Assembly (NCBI GenBank): GCA_030159075.1 | Contig: BROG01000042.1 | Span: 1,178,501 to 1,242,500 of the forward strand | Length of the DNA stretch: 64,000 nucleotides | Reading direction: 5' to 3' | Source: Atrina japonica | Lineage: Eukaryota > Mollusca > Bivalvia > Pterioida > Pinnidae | In this document: one piece after another, positions 36,501 to 55,650 of the stretch | Numbering within the stretch: the stretch's first letter is position 1 | How the letters are laid out: the number at the start of each line of letters is the position of its first letter | Position numbers and translations under genes: made by a program | Notes under the pieces: generated by a model | Seen by the model: the letters and a program-made list of their open reading frames with translations, nothing else | What the model was told of the DNA's origin: nothing | Database searches by the model: none

Positions 36501-39500
36501 ACGAGAAGCTTCCAACTTCACCCTCAAGTTTTCCAACTAGACCCTTATTTCAGAATGTCCCTTCTGGAGCCCCATCTCAAAGCATTCAATCTAGTACTAT
36601 ATCTCAAAGCAGTTACTTGGAAGATGGTAAGTTTTACATACTTTGCTGAGATAAAATAATATCTCTTTTAACATCACTTGAATTACTAATTGAAATTACG
36701 ACTAATAACTCCATGGTAGCAATGAAAGCATGTATTCCTTATGCTGTTTGGTAATGTTTCCAGTCATACAGTATTCAAACTTATATGTATAATTCAAAAT
36801 CCACTTTATTAATTTCACGGATGTAGAGAAATTGTTACTCCATGTTTCCAGTCATACAGTATTCAAACTTATATGTACAATTCAAAATCCACTTTATTAA
36901 TTTCACGGATGTAGAGAAATTGTTACTCCATGTTTCCAGTCATACAGTATTCACACTTATATGTACAATTCAAATTCCACTTTATTAATTTCACGGATGT
37001 AGAGAAATTGTTACTCTATGTTTTATCAAAGTGAAAATTTGAGGTCATGCAGGTTTTACTTTTCTTGTTGATTCTGAATGTGGCATAATTTGCTTTAAAT
37101 GATAAAATTAAATTACAATTAATGTTCAGCTAGGGAAGATATCCCTGAAAAGGGAATTATAGTGTACAACAAAAAGAGGTATCCCATAGACAGGAAATTT
37201 AGTGTATAACAAGGGGAGATAACCCCTAAAATGTAAATATTGTATATGACAAGGAGAGATAACCCCCCAAGAAGAAATATTGTTAAAAAGTACCTGCATT
37301 GTTGACCAAATTATTACATGTTCATTTCATCATTACACTTAATAAAAAAATTATTGTTGAACAGTAAAGATGTGGTTAACTACATATAGTGTTTGATTCT
37401 TGACAAAAATATTGAAATTTTTCCTAGCTTTGTCAGAATTTTGTTTCTGAGTTCACATTGGCTACAAAGACTTTAATGACTTTTCACTAACAAAATAAAT
37501 GACTTAATACATGTACTGATATTACTTTTCAGCTATGGAAAACAGTCATGCTAAACCACACTCCCAGGATCCTACTAAAATGGCTGAACAGATACAATTC
37601 TTACAGAGATCTTTGCAGGTTATTATTTGATATAATCACTTGTCAATTTGTTTCTTCAAACGTGATAAAAAAAATCTTACTGTCACATTTCACATAACAG
37701 AACATGCACTAATGTGTGTGTGTTTTCAAATTCATATGCAATTTTTATTAGTCCCCCATGCTTAGAGGGTGGGGGGGGGGGGAGTTTGGACCTTTAGTTT
37801 TGTGTTGTTTCCTTCTGTCCTTTTGGTGCTTTTGCCATATCTCTCTAACTTCTTCAGGTATGCTCGCCATATTTATTGAAGGTATAAATCATAAGTAGAT
37901 GGAGTGTCACATACAACAAATGTACTCCTATCACCCTTTGTTTTGAGAGTTATTTCCCTTTATTGAAGTTAATTGTCAGGACCAAGTCTAAGTCACCTTT
38001 TCACTTAGGTTCATTATAGTTGATGTAGATATGCATCTTAAGTAGGCAGTGTGTTGCATACAATAATTTTCATCCTGTCTCCCTTATTTTTAGAATTATT
38101 GCCCTTTTTCGGCTTTATTTGTTGACGCCATATCTATTTCATTATTTCCACTAGGCTCACCATATTTGGAACAGATTTACATCTTAGGTAGATGAAGTGA
38201 TTTTATTGATTTATGTATCTTGGCAATATATGGGGGACTACTGATTCTTTGAATTAGCCTTGTAAGCCTTGTAGCGGTGAAATTGAACTATTTTGTAAGA
38301 ACTGCTAGGCTTATTTATTCTATTCAAATTTGGTATCATATGTAACATCAAAAGTGTAAGGTTGAGAAAATTAGATTTACAGGTGCCCTTTGTTTTACAT
38401 GTTTTCACAGGAAGATGTTAATATGTGTGTTTTGAATGACTTTGAAACCAAAATGTTTAGAAATACTGTGTACCTATAATGGTGAAATTATCATGCTAAA
38501 ATTACAGGATCAATACAATATACTATGTACCTATACAGGTGACAATATCATGCTAAAATAACAGGATCAGTACAATATAACATGTACCTATACAGGTGAC
38601 AATATCATGCTAAAATAACAGGATTAGTACAATATAACATGTACCTATACAGGTGACAATATCATGCTAAAATAACAGGATCAGTACAATATACTATGTA
38701 CCTATACAGGTGACAATATCATGCTAAAATAACAGGATTAGTACAATATACCATGTACCTATACAAGTGACAATATCATGCTAAAATAACAGGATTAGTA
38801 CAATATACCATGTAAATTATACAAGTGACAATATCATCATGCTAAAATAACAGGATTAGTACAATATACTATGTACCTATACAGGTGACAATATCATGCT
38901 AAAATTACAGGATCAGTACAGTATACTATGTACCTATACAAGTGACAATATCATGCTAAAATAACAGGATTAGTACAATATACTATGTACCTATACAGGT
39001 GACAATATCATGCTAAAATTACAGGATCAGTACAATATACTATGTACCTATACAGGTGACAATATCATGCTAAAATAACAGGATTAGTACAATATACCAT
39101 GTACCTATGTACCTATACAGGTGACAATATCATGCTAAAATAACAGGATTAGTACAATATACCATGTACCTATACAGGTGACAATATCATGCTAAAATTA
39201 AGGATCAGTAGTACAAATATACTATACAGGTACCTATACAAGTGACATATATCATGCAATACAAAAATAACAGGATTAGTACAATATACTATGTACCTAT
39301 ACAGGTGACAATATCATGCTAAAATAACAGGAATAACAGGATTAGTACAGGTGACAATTAATACTATGTACCTATACATACAAGTGACAATATATCATAA
39401 CAGGCTAAAATAACAGGATTAGTACAGTATAACATGTACCTATACAGGTGACAATATCATGCTAAAATTACAGGATCAGTACAGTATACTATGTACCTAT

Positions 39501-42500
39501 ACAAGTGACAATATCATGCTAAAATACAATTAACATATACTATTAGTACAATATACTATGTACCTATACAGGTGACAATACTATCATGCAATATCAAAAT
39601 TACAGGATCAGTACAATATACCATGTACCTATACAGGTGACAATATCATGCTAAAATTACAGGATTAGTACAATATACTATGTACCTATACAGGTGACAA
39701 TATCATGCTAAAATTACAGGATTAGTACAGTATACCATGTACCTATACAGGTGACAATATCATGCTAAAATAACAGGATTAGTACAATATACTATGTACC
39801 TATACAGGTGACAATATCATGCTAAAATAACAGGATTAGTACAATATACTATGTACCTATACAGGTGACAATATCATGCTAAAATTACAGGATCAGTACA
39901 ATATACCATGTACCTATACAGGTGACAATATCATGCTAAAATAACAGGATACAGGATAGTACAATATACTATGTACCTATACAGGTGACAATATCATGCT
40001 AAAATTACACAGGATCAATACAATTATACTATGTACCTATACAGGTGACAATATCATGCTAAAAATTACAGGATCAGTACAATATAACATGTCAGTACCT
40101 ATACAGGTGACAATATCATGCTAAAATAACAGGATTAGTACAATATACTATGTACCTATACAGGTGACAATATCATGCTAAAATTACAGGATTAGTACAA
40201 TATACCATGTACCTATACAGGTGACAATATCATGCTAAAATAACAGGATTAGTACAATATACTATGTACCTATACAGGTGACAATATCATGCTAAAATAA
40301 CAGGATTAGTACAATATAACATGTACCTATACAGGTGACAATATCATGCTAAAATAACAGGATTAGGACATACAAATATACCATGTACCTATACAGGTGA
40401 CAATATCATGCTAAAATAACAGGATTAGTACAATATACTATGTACCTATACAGGTGACAATATCATGCTAAAATTACAGGATCAATACAATATACTATGT
40501 ACCTATACAGGTGACAATATCATGCTAAAATTACAGGATCAGTACAATATAACATGTACCTATACAGGTGACAATATCATGCTAAAATAACAGGATTAGT
40601 ACAATATACTATGTACCTATACAGGTGACAATATCATGCTAAAATTACAGGATTAGTACAATATACCATGTACCTATACAGGTGACAATATCATGCTAAA
40701 ATAACAGGATTAGTACAATATACTATGTACCTATACAGGTGACAATATCATGCTAAAATAACAGGATCAGTACAATATACCATGTACCTATACAGGTGAC
40801 AATATCATGCTAAAATTACAGGATCAGTACAGTAACATACCACATACCTATACAGGTGACAGTATGGTAAAATTATAGTATCATTAAAACATCAATTCTT
40901 GATTTACAGAGAGCAAAACAGTCGGGAATGATAGCACTTCCTGTTGATGATACAGTTAAAAGAATGATTAATGAAGAGGTATGTTACATAGACTCAAAGT
41001 TTACATCAGTTTTTACTGTATGTATGTCTTGTACTTGTAGATGAAAAAATCAAATATATCCAAAATAATCACTAACTGTTCATTAAAATGAAATACAGTT
41101 ATCTTTATATATTTAAGTTAATTATCAGTTACATTTTTCAATCATTCAAAAATCTGTTGATAAATTCATCTTGAGGTATATGAACACTGACTCTTTGACC
41201 CTCAACTGTCTTTATGGTATGCTTCTTTCTATTGGATCAGTCCATTGTAGGCTGCAGGGTTGAAAGGTTTGATGAAAGTACCTGTCCTCTACCTGTAAAT
41301 ATTGAACAATTACAAAAATTTAACCAAACTTTTTTCTGACACATTTTAATCGGCTTGATAATGTTTTTTATCTATGTGTGTCTCATTTCTGTTGACTTTC
41401 AATTTCAGCCTTACAGCTTGGAGATGTACAAGTCTAAAGAAGATAAACTAGCTCTTTTAGATCAAACCATTGCTTTACATGATGGGAATTCCATAATTGC
41501 TGTAAGTAATTCTTAGTAATGTGGTATTCTCCAATACTTTAAAAAAAAAATTCATATTGTATGCAAAAGTCCTAGACAGTGTGGAGATATGGTCTTTCCA
41601 GTCACTTGTATTAGAATTTCAAATGAAAATTCTCATCTAAAAGTGAGCAGAATAAAAGAAATTTTAGTAGAGAGAAGATTGAGAGACATTTGAATTTGTG
41701 GTTTAATTCAGTATTAAAAACATTCTAATTTATGTATACAACACAGTGAATTAGTAATTCAGTCCACCAAACCAAAGTGAATTATGTAAACAACAGTCAA
41801 TAAGAACTTCAGTCCACCAAACCAAAATGAATTTTGTAAACAATACAGTCAATTTGTACTTCAGTCCACAAAACCTAAGTGAATTATTTAAACAACAAAA
41901 TGCACCATAGATTAAATCATAATTATTGTATATATTACTGACATTTTTAAAAATGTTAATTTCCTGAGTATTTCCTTTTACCATTTACTTTTGTATTCTG
42001 TCGATAATATGTTTTCTGTTTTATATGTGTATTGTTTTCTGTTTTATATGTGTATTGTTTTCTGTTTTATATGCATATTGTTTTCTGTTTTATATGTGTA
42101 TTGTTTTTGGTTTATGTGTGTATTGTTTTCTGTTTTATATGTGTATTGTTTTCTGTTTGATATGTGTATTGTTTTCTGTTTCATATGTGTATTGTTTTCT
42201 GTTTCATATGTGTATTGTTTTTTGTGTTATGTGTATTGTTTTCTGTTTTATATGTGTATTGTTTTCTGTTTTATATGTGTATTGTTTTCGGTTTTGTGTG
42301 TATTTTCTGTTTTATATGTATATTGCTTTCTGTTTTATATGCGTATTTTTTTCTGCTTTATATGTGTATTGTTTTCGGTTTATGCATTGTTTTCTGCTTT
42401 ATATGTGTATTGTTTTCGGTTTATGTGTGTATTGTTTTCTGTTTTATATGTGTATTGTTTTCGGTTTTTTGTATGAATACAAATTGATATTCCATTGACT

Positions 42501-45500
42501 AAATTGATTGTTATTCTGTTTTTTAACAGATTATTTTATTCTTGAAGAAAAGTGTCAAACCTTCCATCTTTAACCTTGAACTTCAGAAGCGACCTGTAGC
42601 TGTAAATCATTATATCAGTTATCTACGAGCTCATTATGACTTTAAAGACTTGGTGGATTTATTAGGGTATGAAGATTATTTAAGTTATTTTTGTACTTAT
42701 TTGTGTTGAGGTAAGGAAAGTTTACAAATTTGTTACTTTGCATTGCAATGGGTACACTACAGGAGAAATGTTGTTTCTTTTTTATTTGTTTGTTAGTTTT
42801 TTTTTGGGGGGGGGGGGTGGGGGTAACCATGTATAGATAATTTTGTTGTGTATTTGTGTCAAGATGTGGGAAAGTATATAGTAAATATACTGGTGTTTAT
42901 GTTTTGTATTTATGTTAGGGTATGGGAAAATTGTATAGAAATTATTCAGATAATTTTGTTGTGTATTTGTGTTTGGGTATAGGACACTGTCTTAACAAAA
43001 CAAAACAAAATATAATTTTCAATTCATACTGCCTTCATGGAGGTAATATCCAAATGCCATTTATATACAGCTGAATTAAGTATATATCAAAGTGCATGTC
43101 TATATTTCTATAAGTTTTGAATTTGTTAATTCTGTCAGTCTGTGTGGTAAGGTGTTGGTTTAAAGGGGCATTATCTGTGTTGACAAAAAAAAAAATATTC
43201 TGATTTTTTCTATTTTTAGTTCTTGTACTTAATGTACAATAACAAATAAACACTATACACAGATATAGAAAAATCTTATATTCTTATATGTTTTGTGAAA
43301 ATAAGGTCAGGTCCAGTGTGGTATTCATATACAAATAGTAAGGTTAAGTTAATCAATTGATTATAAGTGAAAATGTGCCAAACCTAGGTTTCTCAAGCAA
43401 TTTTCACAAAATATTTAGGGATTTAAGAATTTTTATGCCTGTGCATATCTCTTTTTTGTTATTGTATATCAATCTCAGTGGGAAAAAGGGACAAAACAAA
43501 TTTTGGAAAAAACACAGATAATTCCCTTTTAAGTTTTGTAATTGCTCACCAGTCACTTAACTATGGCTTCAATGTTGATGACATGTATTGATTCATCTCT
43601 CAGAATACTTATTTAACTTATTTTCTGACTTTTAGGATGTTAAACAGAACAGAAGAAGCTTCGGTAATTAGTTTCTTTTTTATGTTGCCATTTGTCATTT
43701 TTTATCACGTAACTCATGAATATTCATCATATTCACGTAACTCATGAATATTCATCATTTATTGGAACTTATCTATATGAAGATATAATGACTGATGTGG
43801 ATATAACCACTACAACTAATCTAACTACTATTTAAATACTGACTCAGTCAACACACAATGATTCATTCAGCATGGTCTCATCTATTCACCAACATTTGGG
43901 ACTAATTTTTATTAAACTGTCGGATTTCTGTAGAATCATAAAATTTTGTTGGTTAAAATTTTGCTGGTTAAAAAATAAAAGAAATTCATTGACATTAATT
44001 TCAGTGAAGTGTAAAACCTGTTTGTAAAGGAACGTTTTACTATTGGTATAATTTATGTAAAACTTTGTCATGGTTTAAATTTCGTTGAAAAATGATAACA
44101 ATGAAATAAACGGAATTAAAACCACAAGAAAATTTTCTGATTCTATATAGATTCTATTGATTATTTTAGATGCTAAAGTACAAACAAGCCATATCTTCAT
44201 ATGATGCAAGAAGCAAAATAGCATGTTTAAAAGGTTGTCACAAGTAAGTGTGTATCGAGATTCCATAGACAAAAGTTCTCAATTCTAGAGTCTAAAGACT
44301 CTAATTCAGAGTCTCACATGTCAGACTTCTTATCCTCCTGATATTCTGAATCTCACATGTCAGACTTTTTATCCTCCTGATATTCTGAGTCTCATGTGTC
44401 AGACTTTTTATCCTCCTGATATTCTGATCTTCTGAGTCTTTATATTCGATATTCTGAGTCTCATGTGTCAGACTTTTATATATTCCTGATATTTATCTTC
44501 CTGAGTTCTCACTCATGTGTCAGACTTTCTTTTCCTGATATTCATGTGATATTTCCGAGTCTCATGTGTCAGACTTTTTATATTCCTGATATTCTGAGTC
44601 CTCCTGACTTTTTATATTCTGAGTCTCACGTGTCAGACTTTTTATATTCCTGATCTGAGTCTCCTGATATATTCTGAGTCTCATGTGTCAGACTTTTTAT
44701 ATTCCTGATATTCTGAGTCTCATGTGTCAGACTTTTTATATATCCTGATATTCTGAGACTTTCTCATATGAGTCAGACAGACTTTTATATTCCTGATATT
44801 CTGAGTCTCATGTGTCAGACTTTTTATATTCCTGATATTCTGAGTCTCATGTGTCAGACTTTTTATATTCCTGATATTCTGAGTCTCATGTGTCAGACTT
44901 TTTATATTCCTGATATTCTGAGTCTCACATGTCAGACTTTTTATATTCCTGATATTCTGAGTCTCATGTGTCAGACTTTTTATATTCCTGATATTCTGAG
45001 TCTCATGTGTCAGACTTTTTATCCTCCTGATATTCTGAGTCTCATGTGTCAGACTTTTTATATTCCTGATATTCTGAGTCTCACATGTCAGACTTTTTAT
45101 ATTCCTGATATTCTGAGTCTCATGTGTCAGACTTTTTATCCTCCTGATATTCTGAGTCTCATGTGTCAGACTTTTTATCTTCCTGATATTCTGAATCTCA
45201 CATGTCAGACTTTTTATCTTCTTTTAGCTACTTGATGAGCTTCTTAATGTCTGTGATATATTGTCTCTCTCATATTCATTTGTAATTTAATGAAGATATA
45301 CTGTATAATTATCTCTCAGATAAGAAAGGCTGAATTTAAAATGAAGGCAAAATTTTCAAGCTAAATTATTTGTTTGTTTGTTTATTGTTGTTTAATGTCC
45401 CACTCAAGAATCTTACACTCATATGGAGACATCACCAAATGCCGGTGAAGCGCTTCAAATTTTGGCCCATGCTTGGCACTTACAGCCATTGAGCAGTGAG

Positions 45501-48500
45501 GGTTCTTTAACGTGCCGACACCTACTGTGACATGGGACTTTGGTTTTTACTGTCTCATCTGAAATACAGGAAACCAACCTGCCGTCGGCTGGACTCAAAC
45601 TCACGACCTCATGATCAAGAGTGGAGCTCGCTACTGACTGAGCCAGGCTGGCTCTTCAAGTTGAATAATTGAAGCATTACCATTCATGCTGTCCATGTGG
45701 TTATGGTGATTTATGGCAAATTTAAGACTGTGAATGTTGTGTGTCGTAAAGGGCAAATATTTCCAGATAAACGGTGACCTCTGGGTCATCCACTAACATA
45801 AGTTCTACTTAGCTATCATGTCAATCTTTCATTCATATACATATACTTATCTGATATTGTAGAGCTCATTTTTCTATGGAACCTCAGTTGGGACATGAAG
45901 CCAGCTTAGTGCAGCAACACATATCAATATTAGAAAGACAGTGGCCATTAGAGGTACTATGTTTCTTTTTCAAGAGAAAATGTAGTTTTATTTCAAAATA
46001 ACTGAAAATTAATTCTTTGATTCTTAATATGTGACATAGTAGCATTTCATTTTATAAAGTGATTGTAAAATAACGTAATGTTCTGGTATGTGTTTTGTGT
46101 ATAGGCCTATAGATATATGAAGAAAACACACAATCAAGTAAAATTTCAAATATTGACTAACAAAGTAATTCTAGTGCTATAAAATGATTTATTTTATGTG
46201 GTATGTGTGTTGTGAACATGTATATGTATGTATGTGTGTACACATGTAGGTTTGTGTGCAGAAATAGATAGAAAGCAAGTTTAATGGGCATATAGAATGT
46301 AATGTAAAATATATGTAAAGTGCAAATGCACTTGTGTCTATGTGATATCTGATTCTGTTTGAGACATTTGTGTATGTAGAATTTATAAATAGTGCATTAC
46401 TGGTGTTAAGTGTATATGTTTTGGCCATATCGCGAAGCAAATTCCAGTCGAGGAATTGACAATGTCTGTCTGCACGTCATCTGTGATCTGTGTCATTAAT
46501 GTGATTATTATGTTGTATTTATCTCTGATGTGAGAAAGCTATTTAGAGTTCCATGTTGTCAGTTGATGGCCTTCAGCCTTCTTTTTGTACCTTGACCTTG
46601 ACTTTTTAAATATAATGCTTTGTAGTTCGGCCTTAAAGCCTTTAGCAGAGTCTTGTTCCTAAAATTTATTAATGTACTTGTATTTAATTTGTAAACTGTG
46701 TATACTTTTCTATACAGGATGCAGATGCAAATGCTGCAAAAAATACATTACATCCACAACATTCCAAGTTTAGACAGTATCCACGCAAAGCTAATCTCAT
46801 CAATATGCCTGTTATAACAACATTATATTACTGTTGTTTTTACCACAGTGGGCTTGGGGAGGTAAGCAAGATTTTTATCATATTGTTGACTATCACAGTG
46901 AACTAGGGGAGATAATCAAGATTTATATTATATTGTTGATTATCACAGTAAACTAGGGGAGGTAAGCTATATTTTTATCAATGACATACTGTTGTTTATG
47001 ACAGTGAAGTAGGGGAGATAAGCAAGATCTTTATCACACCGTTGATTATCACAGTGAACTAGGGGAGATAAGCAAGATCTTTATCATACTGTTGTTTATG
47101 ACAGTGAACTAGGGGAGATAAGCAAGATCTTTATCATACTGTTGTTTATGACAGTGAACTAGGGGAGATAAGCAAGATCTTTATCACACTGTTGTTTATC
47201 ACAGTGAACTAGGGGAGATAAGCAAGATCTTTATCACACTGTTGTTTATGACAGTGAACTAGGGGAGATAAGCAAGATCTTTATCACACCGTTGATTATC
47301 ACAGTGAACTAGGGGAGATAAGCAAGATCTTTATCACACTGTTGATTATGACAGTGAACTAGGGGAGATAAGTAAGATTTTTATCATACTGTTATTTATC
47401 ACAGTGAACTAGGGGAGATAAGCAAGATCTTTACTAGGGGAGATAAGCAAGATCTTTATCATACTGTTGTTAATGACAGTGAACTAGGGGAGAAAAGCAA
47501 GATCTTTATCATACTGTTATTTATCACAGTGAACTGGGGAGATAATCAAGATTTTTATCATACTGTTGTTTAGCACAGTGAACTAGGGGAGATAAGCAAG
47601 AATTTTATGAATGAAATCCTGTTGTTTATCATTTTTTCATTATTTATGTCCTTTCTCAATCAAAACTGAATATTGTTTTTGTTATTTGAACTTTTTGTAT
47701 GGCATAAAAATTGTATTTAATTTAGCCTATATTTTCAATGTAATCCAATTCCTTATTATCATAGAGTAATTTCTCCATAATACTCAAATATCAGTGTACT
47801 GCATTTTAGAAAATCATATACATATATAATATTTGTCTTTACAGAACAATTTAGCAAGTCCATTAGCCATTAAAAATGAACATCAGGTAAGATTGGGTAC
47901 CTACAGTATATTGTCTCCAAGACATGATATCTCTAAACTCTTGGGAAAAGACACATTGTCTTATGGAATATTAAAATCACGTTGTCTGTAAACTCATCAA
48001 CCCCTGAAAAACAATGGACTCTTCTGTAAATCAATGACTTAGACCAGTCCAAATGTGTCTTTAGAGGTGAATAAGTTAAGAAAGTATACTAGTATAGAAT
48101 TCTTAAATAGAATCTTTTAACAATAGAATGTGTCTATATAAGCTTACAATAAAATCTGTCTATATAATTGTAGCAAAGTGAAAGTCTTTGACTCAGGTTC
48201 TGTTTCTGTCTTTTATTTGCAATGTTGACATATACACGGTTAATCTTGAGCAGTAGTAACAAGGAACAGTAACTCTTTCTGCCAAACATGTCACCGATAT
48301 AAATTGTATTTATTCAAACATGGTATTTATTCCCAAAATAAAAAGGACGGAAATTATGTGATATCATTTAGATATAAACCAATGAGAAGGCTAATATAAA
48401 AGAAGCAGTAAATTTACAAAGAAAGTACTCAGCAACTCAATGCATATGCGCAGTAGAACTCAAATTTGCTCTAGGGCATTGGAATGACCTCAACCAAGAT

Positions 48501-51500
48501 AAGTGATCTAATGATTAAATTCTTTACAATCAATAATCAATACAATACAGATATTTATCTTCAGTTACACATTTTCAGTTCCCCACATAATCTTGTAAGA
48601 ATAAAATCTGTCAAGCTATGTAAACTTACAAGAATAGATTCTATCTACATATATATATATATATATATAATCTTGTTAGAATAGAATCTCTTTATACAGA
48701 TGTTATTTCACCATTTTTTTTGTCATTTAGTGTTTTTATTTACTAAAAATGTATCATGCATTGCATACTTTTAAAAACTGGATCCCAATAGAAAACTCAA
48801 AGGCTTGAAAAAAGAGCTATGCAGTGTAAAAATGCTTTATTTATCGGAATATCATATTATAATAACATTGTAACTTAATCACTAAAGTGGTAATACCAGC
48901 ATTGTTTTACAACTTCAGTTAACAGAAAAACAGTATGTATGGACAGCACTTAAAGCTAGATCTCGATTAAAACAGTGGAATGGAGTAGAAGAACTTCTTA
49001 AAACAAAGGTAAATTCATTATCCTATATGAGTTGTAAAGATCTGACACTTCACCGGCTTTCCAATATAAGAAATTATTTAAGACATGTAAAAAAATGTCA
49101 TGAATATATGTAATGACAAGGGAATGATTGTCATGAATATGTGTAATGACAAGGGAATGATTGTCATGAATGTAATGACAAGGGAATGATTGTCATGAAT
49201 ATCTGTAATGACAAGGCAATGATTGTCATGAATATCTGTAATGACAAGGCAATGATTGTCATGAATATCTGTAATGACAAGGCAATGTCATGAATGTCTG
49301 TAATGACAAGGCAATGATTGTCATGAATATCTGTAATGACAAGGCAATGATTGTCATGAATATCTGTAGTGACAAGGCAATGATTGTCATGAATGTCTGA
49401 TGACATGGCAATGATTGTCATGAATGTCTGTTATGACAAGGCAATGATTGTCATGAATATCTGTAAAAACAAGGCAATGATTGTCATGGATATCTAATGA
49501 CAAGGCAATGATTGTCATGGATGTCTGTAATGAATGTCTAATGACAAGGCAATAAGTTCTAATGACAAGGCAATGATTATCATGAATGTCTAATGACAAG
49601 GCAATGATTGTCATGGATGTCTGTAATGACAAGGCAATGATTGTCATGAATATCTGTAATGACAAGGCAGTGATTGTCATGAATGTCTAATGACAAGGCA
49701 ATGATTGTCATGAATGTATAATGACAAGGCAATGATTGTCATGAATGTCTATTGACAAGGCAATGATTGTCATGAATGTAATGACAAGGCAATGATTGTC
49801 ATGAATATCTGTAATGACAAAGCAATGATTGTCATGAATATCAAATGACAAGGCAATGATTGTCATGAATGTCTGTAACAACACAGCAATGACTGTCATG
49901 AATGTCTAATAACAAGGCAATGATTTCTAATGACAAGGTAATGATTGTCATGAATGTCTAATGACAAGGCAATGATTGTCATGAATGTCTGTAATGACGA
50001 GGCAATGATTGTCATGAATATCTGTAATGACAAGGCAATGGTAAGGTTCGGCAGGATGATGTCTAAAACTGACTTACATCAGGACCATATTGGGTGGATA
50101 GGAAAAATATTAGCTCACCTGGCCAAAAGGGTCAAAGTTACAGGCACTGTGATGGAAAATTTAAGTTGCATAATTGGCCAAATCTGCCAGTTGAGCATCT
50201 TAAGCCCCTATATTAATTATTGTAATTAACTTTTCTGTCTTTAACTCTGATCTTTAAACTACACATTATCTTGTATATATATATTAAAGTTGTGAACTTG
50301 TAGTTATCGAAGTGCTTGAGAAGCCCCTCTACAATATTATTCTTAACTCCAGTAAATGATTTTAAGCAAAATTTCAAATGATGGTGTCATGTTGTATAGA
50401 ATGATTTTATCTATTTGCTCTCATGTTCAAAAGTACCATTTTGAAGATTGTAAATCAGGAGAAGTCTGATTGGTCCATGGTTGAGGCACCTGATTGGTCT
50501 AAAGGAAGGTGTCTGACTGGTCTAGAAGGAGGAGGTTGATTGGTTGAGTAGATGAGAATGAAAATCCTTGAACAGATTTTTTTCTTATGAACCATTTATA
50601 TAAAACATTTTGAAGAATTAGTAATGAAAGTTTTGATAATGATTGCCTTTTTTTCAGGGCTGGTTTGGTAGTACAAAGTCACATTCTGTAATTGGTTTTG
50701 ATAGAGTCTGTGAAGTTTTATACAGTACTAGTGCACCACTTGATGTAAGTTATCTGTTGATATGATCATGTACTGCAATTACCAGTATTACAATATCTGT
50801 TCATCTTGAGATTTAGTTAAATTTGTTTAAAAAAAACCAGAGGGATAACTGTGTGATATTTACTTAATATTGCATGTGTGGAACTAGATTTCCTGATGAC
50901 AATGAACTCAAGGCTGCCATAGCAATGTGACTTCATGGCCAAACTGAAGACTTCCATTTTCAAAATACAATCTGAAGTTTAAATGGGCAAGTTGCAATAA
51001 GGTAACTGGAGACGTGTTAGAAGAATAACAGACATTGTCTGCTGCCACAATGTATACTGTGAACTTTTTAACTTGTATATTCCATTCCATATAACCTAAG
51101 GTGCAGTCTCATGAACCATTTCTTGACCTGGACAAGTTTAAATTTTAGGTTATGCAGCATGTAAACATTAAAATTACACCAACAAAAGTTATCGTTCCTA
51201 CTTATCACTATACACAAAGGTATCCAGTGGTCAATAAAACACATTTCCTGTGTAGCCTGTAATAACTGAAAAGTGAATAGAATCTTCCAAATGATGATCA
51301 AAATTATACTCTGCTAGCCAACTTATATGAATTGGGCACTGTCTTTATTCAGTGCCCCCAATAAAACTCTTGTATATATGATTTACTATTCAATTTTCTT
51401 TTATTTTCAGATATTGTCTAAATACTTGCGTCTAATTCAGAACCAAGAAAAAAGGATAAATATGGCAAAGAAATACAAGTGTCATGATGTTGCTGTTGAT

Positions 51501-52647
51501 GTAAGCATAGCTAGCTTAATATGAGTTCACATTTGGTTTTAAGTTCAACCCTTCTTCTTAGCCCAAATTCTGATGTTTTAGCATTCTGTGTGTTCGTATC
51601 ATCTGAATATTTTCTTTACACTGGCCATAACTTTATATATGCATGTACTACTTAAAACCGAGAAATATTGTGCTTCCGTACTTCACTTTGCAGTCCACTC
51701 CAGGATCACAAACTTTGAAAATGATGAGAAAGTCATGAGTAGTTTAGTTTAACTTTTGATTTACTCAAAGGCAGCATCAAAGAACTGGTGTAAGACTTAT
51801 GATTCCTAGCACATCCTGTACTTCAGATGACCTGTATCTTGTTGCAAAAATGACCCTGTTTTGGACTTTAAGAAGTTTAGTTTTAACACATTTTATTTCA
51901 TTAATAGAAATGGGATTGAGCATAAGTTTTTCCAGCATTATTTGTGCCCTCTCCCTAGTATGATAACGAACAAAAAAATGTGTCACAGTGGGAAGTATAT
52001 ACAATGCTTTTTAGTTTAGTTGAGGTCAGGTTTACCTACTTCTACCCCTCGTACATCAACCAATCTTGCATGGCGACTGATGTGATACTTAGCATATACT
52101 ATGATTCAGGTGCTGGACTGGACCTGTATTTTTTGCAAAAATGACCCTTCTCTTGGACCTAGTCTATTTTCACCACATGTTTACAGATAATCATACAAAA
52201 GTCAGTGCTCTATTTATTACATTTCAGACTCTTGTATCTCAAAAAGACCGTATACAACTGGAACAGTATACCAGTAAATTACCACAAGGGTCTAGGGAGT
52301 TCTTTTATGCCAGAGATGCTCTTCAAAGCTCTGTAAGTATTTCTGTTCTATCATAAGTTCTTTGTAGTCAAATGTAAATTCAGGGTACACAACTCCTACC
52401 CCTTTTGACAGAAGATCAAATGTTTCATTGTCAGAAATTACTGTACAGTAGAGTGATCAGAACCATTTATAATATAAATGGCAAGTAAAATGCACCAATG
52501 TCTATGAAAGCAAGACGTGCGTGTGTGTGTTCATGTCTATGATCAACATTAAGCAGGGCTCTACAACACTAAAAAAATTCACTCTTCATTTGGCCAGTGA
52601 ACCAGAAATTTTACTAGCCAGCCAGGAACTTTTACTCGCCAATATAC

Positions 52648-52679
<32 letters not shown>

Positions 52680-55650
52680 CTGTGTGTTCATGTGTTCTTA
52701 AAAAATCCACTGGATGAAAATATAGAAATGAAATAAAATATTAATTTTCTAAGTTTATGTAACATTTTATTGTTTCAATCCATTTAAAACAAGGTTATTA
52801 ACTGCATGTTGACCTTTTTGTGCATTTTTTATCAATCCAGTAGTGTTTATATGCCTATATTTTTCATGTTTGTTGCTCTAATATTGAGGCAACCTTAAAC
52901 TTTGTTTTTAAATATTTAGCAACCAGTTTCTTTTCGACAGAATTTACAAAAGAGAGACTGCCCACTAGAATTGAAATTTTTGTAAGTTAAAATTAGAGTT
53001 GACATGATCTGTATGAAGTTAAAATCTAGAGTTTGTCCAACACCCATTTGACAATTTTAATCGTACAGACAAAACAGTTATGAAGTTCTTGTTGCTTAAT
53101 ATTAGGTAAATTTGTTTTTAAATATTTCCAGTTTCTTTTCGGGTATTTGACTGCCCTCTAGATTGAAATTTTGCCTGTAAGTTTACTAGATCCAACAAAT
53201 GACATGATCGTCAGTATAAAACCAGTTCTTTAATTGTGGTGTTAATCCGACTTTGGGGACTCTCTACAGTCCGCGACCGTTTTATTGTGTTGCCCCGGCC
53301 GATTGTGTTGCCCCACGATAAAACGGCCACGATAGAATCCCCAAAGGAATTAGGCTGTGGTCTGCCTGCCCTCCTCGTCGAATACTAGTCCGAACTTTCT
53401 GCCCCGATTTTACCACTTAAAAATCGGTTAAATTAAAATCGAAAACGGGACAGAAAGTTCGGCCTAGTCGAACACTAGCCATAACTCTGTTCCAGTATTC
53501 CTTTAACCAAGATCATTTAAACTTAGTAGTGTCTAATGATGCTTCTGTTGAAATCGACCGAGAGAAGAAAATGTCATCGTGTGCTGTTAGGAAAATTTCA
53601 AGTTGAAAACATGAGAGCAATACAACGTGTTTTTATACAGTAATCCACGTGAGTTAGATGCTCTAGTTTATCGAAACTGAATAACCAAATTGGTTGTTGT
53701 AAAGCGCATAACAGACCATGATTTCGATAATGTAATTTTACAGCGAGAACGGACAAACTTTTTGATTTCCGGTTTGGGGAAAAACTGGTCGCAATGTGGC
53801 GACTGAATGAGGATAAACACTCGCCAAAATCTAAAAAATGGTCGCATTTGCGAGTGATTTGGTCGCATTGTAGAGCGCTGTTAAGTACATGTATTATTAT
53901 AAATCAGTCCAAGTTGGTCTATAGAGTCTATACTTCTGATTACAATAGAGCAGGGGCCCATTTTAAGAAAGGTCCTAAATTTTTGGTCATAACTACCATG
54001 GCAATGCATTGCTGATTGGTCAGTCCCATGACAATTAGGACTAAGACTTAGTATTTAGGACTTAATGCTTTTTGTAAAATGAGCCCTAGGTGGGTAATTT
54101 TACCAGATACAGGCTATGCTATATTAGACCTGTAAGACCATGACTCTTAAATTCTGCTGACTTGAAACAAAACAACAAAAAATAACCACCACAACCAGAT
54201 TGGAACTCACAACCACAGGTTCACCACCTTATAAACTATTTGACTCTCACACAGCTGCTGAGCTACTCTTGAGAATTATGTCTCACAACAAAAAGTCAGT
54301 ACTTTGAATCTTTGTAATCATGAGAGTGTTCAAGTAGATCCTAATGCATAGTAGTATACAAATGGCTTTGATTATCAATATTATAATTCTAGTTTAATAT
54401 AGCTGTTACAATGATTGACATCACAAAAGACATGATAAATGCATGGATAGAAATAACACACTGAATCTCCTTGGAAAAAGTCTCCGTTTTAGTGTACAAT
54501 ATTGTTTTGAAGCTGTAGAAACGGCAAGGAGTCAGAATCTCCACGATCCCTGTGTGAACGTTGAACTATGTTCAATGCCATAAAAATGCCATACTAACAA
54601 GACATTTTATCTTGAATGTTACATCTTTAGAATGTGTTAGTTTCATATTAATCTCCTACATGATATAAACAAAACTAGCCTACTGTTCATCTGTTACAAT
54701 AAACTTAAACGAGTAAATGATACAACCAGAGTTTATATTCTTATCCAGTTTAGTCAATATTACATAGTTTATTGAAGCTCAATTTATATGGAATATTCTT
54801 CATCAATATCTAATAAATGTATATCTTGAGAAATGAATCACTTTTATTTTATACATTTCAGACTGTAAAGTGGAAATGAATCACTTATAAATTTCAGACT
54901 GTGAAGTAGAAATGAATCACTTTTATTTTATACATTTCAGACTGAAGTGGAAATGAATCACTTAATTTTATACATTTCAGACTAGTGGAAATGAATCACT
55001 TTTATGATATACATTTCAGACTGAAGTGAAAATGAATCACTTATGTTATACATTTCAGACTGTGAAGTGGAAATGAATCACTTTATTTTATAAGTTTCAG
55101 ACTGTAGTGGAACTGAATCACTTTTATGTTATACATTTCAGACTGTAAAGTGGAAATGAATCACTTATGTTATACATTTCAGACTGTGAAGTGGAAATGA
55201 ATCACTTTTATGGTATACATATCAGACAGTGAAGTGGAAATGAATCATTTATGTTATACATTTCAGACTGAAGTGAAAATGAATCACTTTTATGATATAC
55301 ATTTCAGACAGTGAAGTGGAACTGAATCACTTATGTTATACATTTCAGACTGTAAAGTGGAAATGAATCACTTATGTTATACATTTCAGACTTTTAGTGA
55401 TATAATCATTTATGTTATACAGTTCAGAAAGTGAAAATGAATCACTTTTATGATATACATTTCAGACAGTGAAGTGGAACTGAATCACTTATGTTATACA
55501 TTTCAGACTGTAAAGTGGAAATGAATCACTTATGTTATACATTTCAGACTAGTGGAACTGAATCACTTTTATGATATACATTTCAGACAGTGAAGTGGAA
55601 CTGAATCACTTTTATGTTATACATTTCAGACAGTGAAGTGGAAGAACTGA
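24522..55650 (+). CDS. VIPAS39: VIPAS39/SPE-39, VPS33B-interacting protein (nineteen coding exons)
   Basis: The exons are 24522-24539, 26940-27014, 32245-32386, 33501-33638, 36441-36626, 37533-37618, 40910-40978, 41409-41501, 42530-42666, 43636-43663, 44170-44243, 45863-45953, 46718-46861, 47845-47886, 48919-49008, 50658-50744, 51411-51500, 52228-52332 and 55630-55650. They total 1716 nt, or 571 residues, longer than the human 493. The N-terminus is acidic with the conserved DDDYWSASK motif. Residues 80-187 are Ser/Pro/Gln-rich and probably disordered. From about residue 230 the Vps16-C-like helical region follows, with near-family signatures [46 protein letters not shown] and [11 protein letters not shown]. 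The last residues TVKWKN match the vertebrate C-terminus. VIPAS39 pairs with VPS33B in membrane tethering at late/recycling endosomes and lysosome-related organelles. All junctions are GT-AG and in phase. Exon 19 lies at the end of an array of its own copies. Confidence 0.96.
25318..25353. repeat. T-run to G-run junction
   Basis: A run of T followed directly by about 17 G. Similar T-to-G runs occur at 32979-32997 and 42797-42827. They are simple sequence and may be hard to sequence accurately. Confidence 0.8.
25990..26080. repeat. Dispersed repeat core (partner at 13555-13640)
   Basis: See the partner copy. GATCAGGTGCCATGGAGGAG to AGTCACACCCG is shared with diverged sequence at 13590-13637. 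It lies in VIPAS39 intron 1. Confidence 0.5.
26639..26790. mobile_element. 3' end fragment of 'AGCTCACCTGGCC' type dispersed element
   Basis: GGTCACAGGCACCTACCATA through AAATTTGCCAGGTGAGTGCC matches GTTACAGGCACTGTGATGGA through AAATCTGCCAGTTGAGCATC at 50134-50200. The whole class, beginning AGCTCACCTGGCC, is familiar from bivalve genomes by memory only. Confidence 0.5.
26940..27014 (+). CDS. VIPAS39: VIPAS39 coding exon 2
   Basis: A 75-nt exon encoding residues 7-31 ([19 protein letters not shown] and on). The EDDDYW...SK...F pattern is the conserved N-terminus of the family. Acceptor TTATTTCAG, donor GTAAGT, phase 0 both sides. Confidence 0.95.
27468..27736 (+). mobile_element. 5' part of 'TAGCTCACCTGGCCC' dispersed element
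   Basis: It starts TTAGCTCACCTGGCCCAAAG with an internal hairpin (GGCCCAAAGGGCC). It then runs into GGAGTATAAACCTTCTAAAT...ATTGTGACATTT, which is identical to part of the unit of the 29409-31372 array. The continuity is interrupted at 27742 by an inserted transposon. Confidence 0.7.
27742..29403. mobile_element. 1.66-kb DNA transposon, CAGGGCTCAACA termini, 5-bp duplication
   Basis: The left end is CAGGGCTCAACACTA and the right end, read on the other strand, is CAGGGCTCAACATTA. CATTT flanks both sides (27737-27741 and 29404-29408). Removing the element restores the repeat unit GTGACATTTATAACC exactly. The CAGGG terminus resembles hAT elements, but those usually make 8-bp duplications, so the superfamily is open. 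No transposase frame is recognised inside; the longest frames are about 60 codons. Confidence 0.85.
29409..31372. repeat. About 105-125-bp tandem array, about 17 copies
   Basis: The unit is TTATAACCTGTTATTACCCA then GGGAGTAGGGGTTCATAGTC, TGTGGTGGGACCAATATAGC, CAATATATCGTAGGAAATCT and TCTCCTCTATAAACCTTCTA, ending AATTGTGACA. Copies differ by short indels (for example loss of GTAGGGG or CCAATATAG). Degenerate related sequence continues to about 31900. It lies in VIPAS39 intron 2. Confidence 0.96.
32245..32386 (+). CDS. VIPAS39: VIPAS39 coding exon 3
   Basis: A 142-nt exon encoding residues 32-78. It contains [19 protein letters not shown] and [12 protein letters not shown], matching the acidic patch and the W-x-G-x-P-V motif of the vertebrate protein. 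Acceptor CACTGTAG, donor GTAGAT, ends in phase 1. Confidence 0.93.
33501..33638 (+). CDS. VIPAS39: VIPAS39 coding exon 4 (Ser/Pro/Gln-rich)
   Basis: A 138-nt exon, phase 1 on both sides, encoding residues 79-124 ([20 protein letters not shown] and on). It is low in conservation and probably disordered. The acceptor is chosen at ATGTAAG because the downstream ACAG alternative would break the frame. Confidence 0.85.
34861..35295. repeat. 35-bp minisatellite, about 12 copies
   Basis: The unit is TATTTTGTATTACATGTGTA then TATATGATTTCTGAG. It is regular until 35215, then decays. Another partial copy appears at 36108-36131 on the far side of an inserted element. It lies in VIPAS39 intron 4. Confidence 0.95.
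35303..36107. mobile_element. 805-bp element with CAGTTCACC termini and TA duplication
   Basis: It begins CAGTTCACCCCGATATGCCG and ends GTTATAACGGTGGTGAACTG. These form an inverted repeat, and TA lies on each side (35301-35302 and 36108-36109). The right flank resumes the 35-bp repeat (TATGATTTCTGAGTA). A TA duplication suggests a Tc1/mariner or related non-autonomous element. No coding frame is recognised. Confidence 0.75.
36441..36626 (+). CDS. VIPAS39: VIPAS39 coding exon 5 (Ser/Pro/Thr-rich)
   Basis: A 186-nt exon, phase 1 on both sides, residues 125-186, with repeated SS, PS and SQS runs and SYLED at the end. The frame extends upstream into the intron to 36287, but the TTATTTATAG acceptor and phase fix the start. 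Confidence 0.88.
36754..37020. repeat. 88-bp tandem triplication
   Basis: Three copies begin near 36754, 36841 and 36929, each opening ATGTTTCCAGTCATACAGTA and closing GTAGAGAAATTGTTACTC. They are almost identical. VIPAS39 intron 5. Confidence 0.93.
37533..37618 (+). CDS. VIPAS39: VIPAS39 coding exon 6
   Basis: An 86-nt exon encoding residues 187-215, ending [17 protein letters not shown], an amphipathic helix-like segment. Acceptor TTACTTTTCAG. The donor GTTATT is weak. Confidence 0.88.
37747..38242 (+). mobile_element. Dispersed element bounded by AGTCCCCCAT / ATGGGGGACT
   Basis: It begins TTAGTCCCCCATGCTTAGAG and ends TATATGGGGGACTACTGATT, an inverted pair. The interior (CCATATCTCTCTAACTTCTT, CTCACCATATTTGGAACAGA) repeats an internal motif twice. 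It resembles the element class at 13035. It lies in VIPAS39 intron 6. Confidence 0.6.
38470..40865. repeat. 57-bp minisatellite, about 42 copies, 2.4 kb
   Basis: The unit is TGTACCTATACAGGTGACAA then TATCATGCTAAAATAACAGG and ATTAGTACAATATACTA. Main variants are AATTACAGGATCAG, AACATG and ACCATG. Patches at 39200-39600 and 39950-40100 contain local scrambling and short internal duplications (for example ACAGGATACAGGATAG). It ends 45 bp before VIPAS39 exon 7. Confidence 0.97.
40910..40978 (+). CDS. VIPAS39: VIPAS39 coding exon 7
   Basis: A 69-nt exon encoding residues 216-238 ([20 protein letters not shown] and on), leading into the conserved region. Acceptor TTGATTTACAG, donor GTATGT. It is preceded directly by the 57-bp array. 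Confidence 0.9.
41409..41501 (+). CDS. VIPAS39: VIPAS39 coding exon 8
   Basis: A 93-nt exon encoding residues 239-269, [18 protein letters not shown] then [13 protein letters not shown]. This is one of the best-conserved segments of the family. Confidence 0.96.
41999..42466. repeat. 23-bp T-rich minisatellite, about 20 copies
   Basis: The unit is TCTGTTTTATATGTGTATTG plus TTT. It ends about 60 bp before the exon 9 acceptor, and the exon's pyrimidine tract (TTGTTATTCTGTTTTTTAACAG region) looks like a diverged unit. The Cys/Phe-rich reading frames it creates are not genes. Confidence 0.95.
42530..42666 (+). CDS. VIPAS39: VIPAS39 coding exon 9
   Basis: A 137-nt exon encoding residues 270-314, with [19 protein letters not shown] and the [14 protein letters not shown] helix pair. 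The acceptor follows a T-rich tract (CTGTTTTTTAACAG) that resembles the adjoining 23-bp repeat unit. Confidence 0.96.
43160..43532 (+). mobile_element. MITE, AAAGGGGCATTATCTGTGTT termini (copy 1)
   Basis: The left end TAAAGGGGCATTATCTGTGT pairs with the right end AACACAGATAATTCCCTTTT. The interior (GAAAATAAGGTCAGGTCCAG, TGTGGTATTCATATACAAAT) is shared with 61862-62241. VIPAS39 intron 9. Confidence 0.8.
43636..43663 (+). CDS. VIPAS39: VIPAS39 coding exon 10 (28-nt micro-exon)
   Basis: Only 28 nt, encoding MLNRTEEAS plus one base of the preceding Gly codon. It matches the FLDRTEE motif of the vertebrate protein, so it is real despite its size. Acceptor CTTTTAG, donor GTAATT. Confidence 0.93.
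44170..44243 (+). CDS. VIPAS39: VIPAS39 coding exon 11
   Basis: A 74-nt exon encoding residues 325-348, [20 protein letters not shown] and on. Donor GTAAGT, phase 2 end. Confidence 0.93.
44310..45222. repeat. 39-bp minisatellite, about 22 copies
   Basis: The unit is GATATTCTGAGTCTCATGTG then TCAGACTTTTTATATTCCT. The left part is disordered with internal deletions; from 44770 on it is regular. The length is divisible by three and has no stop in one frame, which yields a long 13-residue-repeat open frame that I do not regard as a gene. VIPAS39 intron 11. Confidence 0.96.
45368..45654 (-). mobile_element. tRNA-headed SINE (minus orientation)
   Basis: On the minus strand the head carries an A-box-like TGGCTCAGTCAG and a B-box-like GAGTTTGAGTCC (45591-45602). 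A conserved body follows, ending TTCTTGAGTGGGACATTAAA, with an AAACA-type tail. Imperfect direct repeats flank it: CAAGCTAAATTATT at 45357-45370 and CAAGTTGAATAATT at 45656-45669. The layout fits a tRNA-derived SINE; I do not assign a named family. Confidence 0.8.
45863..45953 (+). CDS. VIPAS39: VIPAS39 coding exon 12
   Basis: A 91-nt exon encoding residues 349-379. It contains the [12 protein letters not shown] segment that matches the family 'LLERQ' motif. Acceptor TATTGTAG, donor GTACTA. Confidence 0.93.
46718..46861 (+). CDS. VIPAS39: VIPAS39 coding exon 13
   Basis: A 144-nt exon encoding residues 380-427, with the hallmark [20 protein letters not shown] and ending YHSGLGE. Donor GTAAGC at 46862. 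The last 20 bases or so of the exon plus this donor are the founder of the 50-bp array that follows. Confidence 0.96.
46862..47612 (+). repeat. 50-bp array derived from VIPAS39 exon 13 and its 5' splice site
   Basis: The unit is ACAGTGAACTAGGGGAGATA then AGCAAGATCTTTATCACACT and GTTGTTTATG, about 15-16 copies. It is homologous to the exon end plus donor, ACAGTGGGCTTGGGGAG then GTAAGCAAGATTTTTATC. In the copies the donor GT has become AT (or AA), except at 46962 where GTAAGC persists. It occupies most of intron 13. Confidence 0.95.
47845..47886 (+). CDS. VIPAS39: VIPAS39 coding exon 14 (42 nt)
   Basis: Encodes [14 protein letters not shown], phase 0 on both sides, matching the 'SSPVNLKK' region of the vertebrate protein. 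Acceptor TTTACAG, donor GTAAGA. Confidence 0.93.
47991..48080 (+). repeat. Dispersed repeat copy (partner at 1343-1431)
   Basis: Begins AACTCATCAACCCCTGAAAA and ends GTGAATAAGTTAAG. See the partner entry. It lies just downstream of the exon 14 donor. Confidence 0.75.
48919..49008 (+). CDS. VIPAS39: VIPAS39 coding exon 15
   Basis: A 90-nt exon encoding [20 protein letters not shown] and [10 protein letters not shown], highly conserved. Donor GTAAAT. Confidence 0.96.
49090..50042. repeat. About 33-bp minisatellite, about 29 copies
   Basis: The unit is AATGATTGTCATGAATATCT then GTAATGACAAGGC. Copies vary by deletion of CTGT or of whole segments. The spacing is head-to-tail without spacers, so it is not CRISPR-like. 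VIPAS39 intron 15. Confidence 0.95.
50111..50206 (+). mobile_element. Short internally deleted 'AGCTCACCTGGCC' element
   Basis: It begins TTAGCTCACCTGGCCAAAAG like 27468 and ends with the same 3' segment as 26700-26790 (CCAAATCTGCCAGTTGAGCA). Only about 95 bp remain, so it is a deletion derivative. Confidence 0.6.
50658..50744 (+). CDS. VIPAS39: VIPAS39 coding exon 16
   Basis: An 87-nt exon encoding [20 protein letters not shown] and on, matching the W-L-G...IGF-R-V motif of the family. Acceptor CCTTTTTTTCAG, donor GTAAGT. Confidence 0.96.
51084..51332. mobile_element. MITE, unexpanded relative of 9585-10120
   Basis: It begins ATTCCATATAACCTAAGGTG and ends CTAGCCAACTTATATGAAT, an imperfect terminal inverted repeat. 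TCTCATGAACCATTTCTTGA corresponds to TCTCTTGAACCCTTTCTTGA of the 59-bp array unit, present here once. The right half matches 9965-10120. Confidence 0.7.
51411..51500 (+). CDS. VIPAS39: VIPAS39 coding exon 17
   Basis: A 90-nt exon encoding residues 501-530, ending [15 protein letters not shown], equivalent to LNLATKFKCHDVVID in vertebrates. Confidence 0.96.
52228..52332 (+). CDS. VIPAS39: VIPAS39 coding exon 18
   Basis: A 105-nt exon encoding residues 531-565, [20 protein letters not shown] and on, ending ALQSS. Donor GTAAGT. The next acceptor in a suitable phase is the first of about twenty near-identical ones beginning at 54862. Confidence 0.95.
52556..52640 (+). repeat. Dispersed repeat (partner near 11995-12065)
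   Basis: ATTCACTCTTCATTTGGCCA and GTGAACCAGAAATTTTACTA match AATCACTCTTCATTTGGCTA and GTGAAACAGAAACTTCACTA near 12006-12046. The family is not identified. A TA microsatellite follows at about 52645-52670. Confidence 0.6.
53248..53477. mobile_element. Two adjacent GC-richer foldback sequences
   Basis: CTTTGGGGACTCT...GACCGTTTTATTGTG pairs with CACGATAAAACGG...AGAATCCCCAAAG (53251-53346). AATACTAGTCCGAACTTTCT pairs with AGAAAGTTCGGCCTAGT (53380-53477). They stand out from the AT-rich intron by CpG content. Probably foldback-type element remnants, superfamily unknown. Confidence 0.6.
53707..53806 (+). repeat. Dispersed repeat (partner at 14545-14640)
   Basis: See the partner. This copy is followed by GGTCGCATTTGCGAGTGATT, which is absent from the other copy. 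Confidence 0.7.
53953..54088. mobile_element. MITE, GGGGCCCATTTTA termini (copy 1)
   Basis: It begins GGGGCCCATTTTAAGAAAGG and ends TTTTGTAAAATGAGCCCT, inverted repeats. The interior AACTACCATGGCAATGCATT is found in reverse at 61636-61783. Confidence 0.8.
54852..55629 (+). repeat. VIPAS39: Tandem array of VIPAS39 3' splice site plus terminal micro-exon
   Basis: About 19 copies of roughly 33-48 bp precede exon 19. Each has TTATACATTTCAG, then an exon-like piece (ACTGTAAAGTGGAAATGA or variants), then ATCACTT. First exon-like bases are at 54862, 54898, 54941, 54981, 55020, 55059, 55101, 55142, 55183, 55226, 55267, 55308, 55349, 55390, 55428, 55466, 55507, 55548 and 55587. Seven read TVKWK-stop and three TVKWN-stop in the phase of exon 18. 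One reads TVK-stop; the others are shifted by small deletions. All keep the CAG acceptor. Confidence 0.93.
55630..55650 (+). CDS. VIPAS39: VIPAS39 terminal coding exon 19 (authentic copy)
   Basis: ACAGTGAAGTGGAAGAACTG plus A reads TVKWKN then stop. This matches the vertebrate ending (I/V-R/K-W-K-N). It is the last copy of the upstream array and the only one with the full KN ending and unique sequence after it, so I take it as the founder. Any earlier in-frame copy used instead would give TVKWK or TVKWN. Confidence 0.85.
   Translation, partial: TVKWKN

Follow-up and report, generated by a model that had tools for sequence, protein, structure and literature searches.

Within 64,000 nucleotides of the bivalve Atrina japonica (assembly GCA_030159075.1, contig BROG01000042.1, positions 1,178,501 to 1,242,500 of the forward strand; hereafter the window, in whose coordinates positions are given), the VIPAS39 (SPE39) gene ends in a minisatellite whose unit combines the end of the last intron with all coding sequence of the terminal exon. 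It is well supported that this array represents an acceptor-type mirage, i.e., a tandem duplication of an intron/exon boundary, and we consider it probable, taking the explanation as a whole, that the mirage was born by slippage and is passively tolerated by the gene. The features on which this reading depends are the following:

54830..55643, + strand: acceptor-type mirage, a 41-bp minisatellite of about 20 units, each holding a candidate branch site and tract, a CAG acceptor, the coding micro-exon and a stop (Tandem Repeats Finder (TRF), acceptor list, alignment and shuffles)
54862..54879, + strand: first micro-exon copy, TVKWK-stop, read in phase behind the upstream intron flank
55630..55650, + strand: terminal coding exon in its native 3' context (copy 20), TVKWKN-stop, read in phase and matching the conserved C-terminus of homologues
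52228..52332, + strand: penultimate exon (TLVSQKDR...ALQSS), ending in phase 0 before GTAAGT
26940..55650, + strand: VIPAS39/SPE39 gene, exons e2-e18 (first exon not located), from tblastn with scallop and mussel SPE39, junctions and the terminal exon

TRF delimits the array at 54830-55643, with a period of 41 bp, 20.1 copies as assembled and 84% matches, and the alignment gives a mean identity of 83% between copies, units 8, 13 and 17 being identical to one another, as are units 12 and 16. The unit contains the 3' end of the intron (ATCAC, a T-rich stretch and TATACATTTCAG, with variants) and, after it, the exon start, typically ACWGTRAAGTGGAA and TGA. The 20 CAG acceptors are spaced 36-43 nt apart, with last intron bases from 54861 to 55629 and exon starts from 54862 to 55630. 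A unit pattern derived from the array itself, allowing up to 3 mismatches, had 12 matches in the window, all within the array, and none in 100 shuffles. Additionally, the 3' flank of the array occurs a single time in the 832-Mb assembly. The array is thus a tandem repeat carrying intron and exon sequence across a predicted splice junction, whose position is indicated by homology and splice sites. In agreement with these observations, a preliminary description of this DNA had reported about 20 copies of a minisatellite made from an exon and its splice site, with CAG kept in every copy (20/20).

The host gene was identified by homology. Scallop and mussel SPE39/VIPAS39 proteins match the + strand exon by exon from about 26.9 kb to 52.3 kb (tblastn), which bears out the identity proposed earlier; the terminal exon is e18 in our model, and was counted as the nineteenth before. 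The scallop protein P0001 ends in DALKSSTVKWKN, near the joined reading DALQSS-TVKWKN, and [K/R]WK plus at most one residue forms the C-terminal end of 55 of 60 homologues, a set that includes isoforms and partial models. The five homologues with other endings are P0008, P0011, P0033 (KWR), P0048 and P0050, of which P0008 and P0011 are partial bird models that depart from SILSN onward, as though read into an intron. On this homology, the terminal micro-exon is genuine and conserved, and the earlier reading of it as TVKWKN-stop, in the phase left by the exon that ends before GTAAGT, holds. A last exon in another phase, giving a 14-residue reading, was ruled out, since exon 52228-52332 ends in phase 0 and the homologues end in [K/R]WK. 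The best protein matches were both bivalve, with 65% identity over 52% of the first composite and 57% over 99% of the second. Many VIPAS39 homologues carry PF04840; a Pfam scan of the first composite returned nothing above the cut-off, and searches of solved structures returned no VIPAS39 relative, one being empty and the other giving two weak, unrelated matches. The penultimate exon's own acceptor at 52216-52229 (TTACATTTCAG|AC) closely resembles an array acceptor, probably by chance.

Read in phase 0, as set by the penultimate exon, the 19 upstream copies give TVKWK-stop seven times, TVKWN-stop three times and TVK-stop once, and eight are frameshifted; copy 20 gives TVKWKN-stop, and copies 1 and 20 are both in frame. 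Among the frameshifted copies, copy 5 runs through into the next unit, yielding an 18-residue tail that still ends in TVKWK. With copy 5 included, 11 of the 19 upstream copies would give an ending TVKWK or TVKWN if spliced to, and the remaining eight choices would lead to tails of 3-15 residues. The preliminary count of ten upstream copies with TVKWK or TVKWN (7 + 3) agrees with ours, and its claim that most copies would give a near-normal C-terminus stands at 11/19. The copy that it took to stop a codon earlier is copy 2, which stops after TVK, two codons before the stop of TVKWK; its description of the rest as frameshifted is right for 8/19 copies and has to be amended for copy 5, which reads on to the usual ending.

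In every copy the stop lies 12-57 nt past the acceptor. Beyond the array, ATTAAA is present from 56193 onward and AATAAA from 57549 onward. No GTRAG donor was found within the array in a search for that pattern, weaker donors being unscored; therefore, any acceptor would open a terminal exon extending to the poly(A) site, and cassette micro-exons within the array were ruled out on the same observation. Nonsense-mediated decay is not expected when the stop lies within the last exon, and is thus not expected for the array products. In principle, the spliceosome could connect the penultimate exon with any one of the copies, the remainder of the array becoming 3' untranslated region (UTR), and 10 of the 19 upstream choices would place TVKWK or TVKWN where TVKWKN stands. 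Because the unit contains the complete coding ending, over half of the splice choices would be nearly harmless.

Splice signals are kept across many units. On a small weight matrix trained on 16 other acceptors of this one gene, the 20 array acceptors obtain scores of 2.9-11.9 (median 9.5), which fall inside the span of the 16 native acceptors under leave-one-out (1.5-14.0, median 7.3); 14 of the 20 reach at least 6.9. Ranked against 1469 further AGs of the gene, 19 of the 20 exceed the 90th percentile (or, in one case, only reach the 89.7th), and 11 exceed the 99.5th. The top acceptors are 54980 (11.9) and 54861 and 54940 (11.3 each), the copy in native context at 55629 scores 7.3, and no AG of the last intron outside the array acceptors scores above 7.5. 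A candidate TNAY branch site (aTCAC/aTCAT) precedes the first exon base by 20-22 nt in 19 of the 20 copies and by 15 nt in copy 2.

The edges of the array suggest how it may have arisen. At its left edge the sequence is GAGAA|ATGAATCACTT, at its right edge it is GTGGAA|GAACTGAAG, and most internal junctions read GTGGAA|ATGAATCAC or GTGGAA|CTGAATCAC. We propose that a 41-43 bp segment, comprising the 3' end of the last intron and the full terminal coding part, was duplicated in tandem and later grew to about 20 copies; the duplication probably came about by slippage where intron and exon flanks share a short GAA (or TGAA). Slippage at the shared GAA would alone create the in-frame stop of TVKWK-stop, and TVKWN-stop would result if slippage took place at TGAA and 3 bp were then lost. 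With an acceptor and a stop in each copy and no GTRAG donor after them, the array would be tolerated, not selected, and one or a few acceptors would be expected to dominate, with 54980, 54861 and 54940 as the best-scoring candidates.

To examine the divergence among copies, substitution events were placed on a tree built from the 19 inter-acceptor units; the repeats are short and the tree is poorly resolved. None of the 26 events falls in CAG, compared with 1.8 expected (P 0.15), so that selection for CAG retention is not significant, and recent shared ancestry suffices to account for CAG in every copy. The exon indels are of -2, -4 and -5, with one of -3, and hence no coding frame is kept; coding constraint on the copies found no support, 9 of the 19 upstream copies being broken, mostly by frameshifting indels. 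Our conclusion is that these copies are not preserved for a coding role. A GTG..GTG direct repeat in the exon part may by itself promote deletions. Since coding constraint is lacking and CAG retention lies within chance, selection for the 'buffered' exon suggested in the preliminary description is not supported.

The preliminary description also missed that the phenomenon has a name and precedents ('mirages', see below) and that a second, donor-side mirage is present in the same gene (46829-47608):

46718..46861, + strand: VIPAS39 exon e12, from the 3' end of which the second mirage derives
46829..47608, + strand: donor-type mirage, with a 50-bp unit made of the end of exon e12 and the donor GGGGAG|GTAAGC; the extra copies mostly read GGGGAGATAAGC, the donor being lost (TRF and sequence)

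Among its 15 extra copies, the donor dinucleotide is GT in 1, AT in 13 and AA in 1. More generally, TRF output merged by hand gives 15 arrays (period of 15 bp or more) over 9.6 of the 28.8 kb of the VIPAS39 span, a third of its sequence. Splice junctions are contained in 2 of these 15 arrays, versus 4.8 expected at random (P(<=2) 0.07), and 2 of the 32 junctions tested (17 acceptors and 15 donors, with the e3 donor left out) have tandem copies. This junction deficit would fit a tolerance of arrays at exon edges that is limited to cases where an edge copy keeps the junction. Dense minisatellites in the window include 29404-31363, 38463-40865 and 20775-23526. A 33-bp minisatellite (ATACTGGGATTGTTATGACACTTTAAAGGAGGC) at 60294-61376 has long open frames on both strands, near what may be a TARBP1-like gene on the - strand.

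Mirages are also found in other genes of this genome. A chaperonin sample comprised 46 of 49 PF00118 matches in 167 kb of sequence; the three rows left out, at two loci (C151 and C447), lie in long open frames. Four of the 46 matches overlap an array, and a further 3 have an array within 60 bp. Two of the four overlapping matches are clear donor-type mirages:

C658:87373-87746, - strand (L034): chaperonin-family exon end IVFGGGAPEISCSLAVAEAANK|GTAGGT, a 93-bp unit present four times, with 4/4 donors GTAGGT kept (native included) and the frame open throughout
C322:145882-146562 (L051): chaperonin-family exon end GPQQAVGLDIKTG|GTAAGT, 13 units, with 7 CTGGTAAGT kept (native included)

Judging from the open frame, use of the later C658 donors would add 31-residue in-frame repeats. 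In the C322 mirage, reading on past the donor meets a stop, yet six extra donors are kept. The array at C97 is intronic and lies beside a donor, and that at C77 was not classed as a clear mirage. A rule by which harmful donor copies disappear and harmless ones persist fits the VIPAS39 donor mirage and C658; it is contradicted by C322 and was dropped. An array near a myosin-head exon (L052) ends within the intron, not at the exon, and no second acceptor-type mirage was found in the chaperonin and myosin samples. Mirages thus recur in this genome at a low rate, as seen in a small, non-random sample.

The closest known systems are the mirages of amphioxus. The BflGb6 mirage consists of the 3' end of an intron and the 5' part of exon 2, with 6 and 3 copies in two haplotypes; many mirage copies keep AG/GT, and reverse transcription PCR suggests that regular splicing is undisturbed (PMC3087553). 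Lancelet PGBD5, Adh and TnC are further cases (PMC3902484). The amphioxus mirages share the boundary anatomy and likewise recur across genes of one genome (PMC3087553, PMC3902484). In contrast, the Atrina array resides in a mollusc, has a 41-bp unit in 20 copies and carries the whole terminal coding part, stop included, in each unit; moreover, length polymorphism and the outcome of splicing are described for the amphioxus mirages, whereas the mollusc array is known from its sequence.

A donor-side relative occurs in human ABCA7, where an intron-18 variable number tandem repeat with a 25-bp unit, the first two bases of which are the native exon 18 donor, is highly variable in length, and a repeat copy serves as an alternative donor with one unit retained (PMC5954066). 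ABCA7 differs from the VIPAS39 array in being on the donor side of an internal exon and in that alternative use breaks the frame. The human IFI6 (6-16) minisatellite, reportedly described by Turri et al., is said to supply donor sites, not acceptors, and not at a terminal exon. Tandem acceptors of the NAGNAG type also place several usable 3' splice sites in series, a few nucleotides apart and with one shared branch site; unlike these, the VIPAS39 acceptors are about 41 nt apart, each with its own branch candidate. In abalone, a TSSK1-like gene has an intronic 27-bp minisatellite whose number varies between individuals and which is not said to span a junction (PMC6905558). No title among the matches listed pointed to a mollusc precedent for a junction-spanning repeat, subscription literature being outside this coverage.

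Several observations weigh against a slippage-born, passively tolerated mirage, or narrow it. Six acceptors (55019, 55225, 55307, 55427, 55465 and 55586) are weak, with scores of 2.9-4.2, near background (about the 90th-95th percentile of the 1469 AGs), and on this small matrix the highest AG elsewhere in the gene scores 16.1, above every array acceptor. The birth junction is based on 3-4 bp of homology, possibly a coincidence, and splicing into any upstream copy is a prediction from the sequence. Recurrence is modest: 25 stretches surrounding myosin-head exons, taken from 79 listed matches, showed no mirage. There are also weak signs that the splice signals are constrained: the 18 exon columns take 16 of the 26 substitution events (P 0.034), and the branch and acceptor columns contain none of the 7 distinct indel patterns (P 0.038), both results being post hoc, uncorrected and dependent on the poorly resolved tree. 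Such a weak excess of change in the exon part speaks for a functionally buffered terminal exon, in which redundant acceptors are kept to secure or tune the last splice, several are used, and C-termini or 3' UTR lengths vary between individuals. The same can be said of the complete retention of CAG, of the 14 acceptors scoring near or above the native median, of the 11 upstream copies with a TVKWK or TVKWN ending, and of the loss of GT in 14 of the 15 extra copies of the gene's donor mirage, compared with no loss of CAG in the acceptor array. However, the copies lack coding constraint, CAG retention is within chance, and the C322 mirage keeps its extra donors despite the stop on read-on, so that site retention does not track harmlessness. 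Buffering is therefore improbable in our judgment, and passive tolerance is preferred over it.

It is also conceivable that a single acceptor, the first or the native last, is used and that the other copies are silent decoys, inert as intron or 3' UTR. The amphioxus mirages, reported to leave regular splicing undisturbed, favor this possibility, as do the frameshifts that pile up freely in upstream copies and the in-frame state of copies 1 and 20. On the other hand, many copies are nearly identical in splice signal and some score as high as or above copies 1 and 20, and exclusive use of one acceptor would thus have no visible sequence basis except position; we regard silent decoys as unlikely, albeit far from negligible. 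That the array was inflated or made chimeric during assembly is very improbable: a repeat of this kind was reportedly misassembled in an amphioxus draft (PMC3087553), but the differences among the Atrina copies argue against stutter, the array occupies 0.8 kb of a contig longer than 1.2 Mb in an assembly of 2347 contigs, its 3' flank is found once, and similar arrays exist in other genes. Still harder to credit is a wrong gene model, with the true terminal exon elsewhere and the TVKWKN likeness due to chance. An exon of 6 codons is short, but the end of P0001, the [K/R]WK ending of the homologues, the phase and the splice sites all fit it.

Relative to the literature compared, the VIPAS39 mirage is new in its mollusc host, in a unit with a complete coding ending (acceptor, codons and stop) and in its recurrence within one genome. 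A more far-reaching and rather doubtful proposal is that of a working multi-acceptor terminal exon, with choice spread over many of the 20 acceptors, and of mirages as a recurrent route to redundant splice sites in molluscan and amphioxus genes. If true, each individual would express many VIPAS39 mRNA forms at once, their 3' UTRs stepped by about 41 nt and their C-termini reading KWKN, KWK, KWN or new tails, as dictated by a hypervariable minisatellite. Twenty similar acceptors, many of them sequence-tagged, would constitute a natural experiment on whether the first, the nearest or the strongest 3' splice site is chosen or the choice is spread. Together, the VIPAS39 donor mirage and the two chaperonin-family ones suggest that boundary mirages recur in a mollusc too, beyond amphioxus and the donor-side human cousins, and such mirages may contribute to redundancy of splice sites, to changes in introns and to alternative ends.

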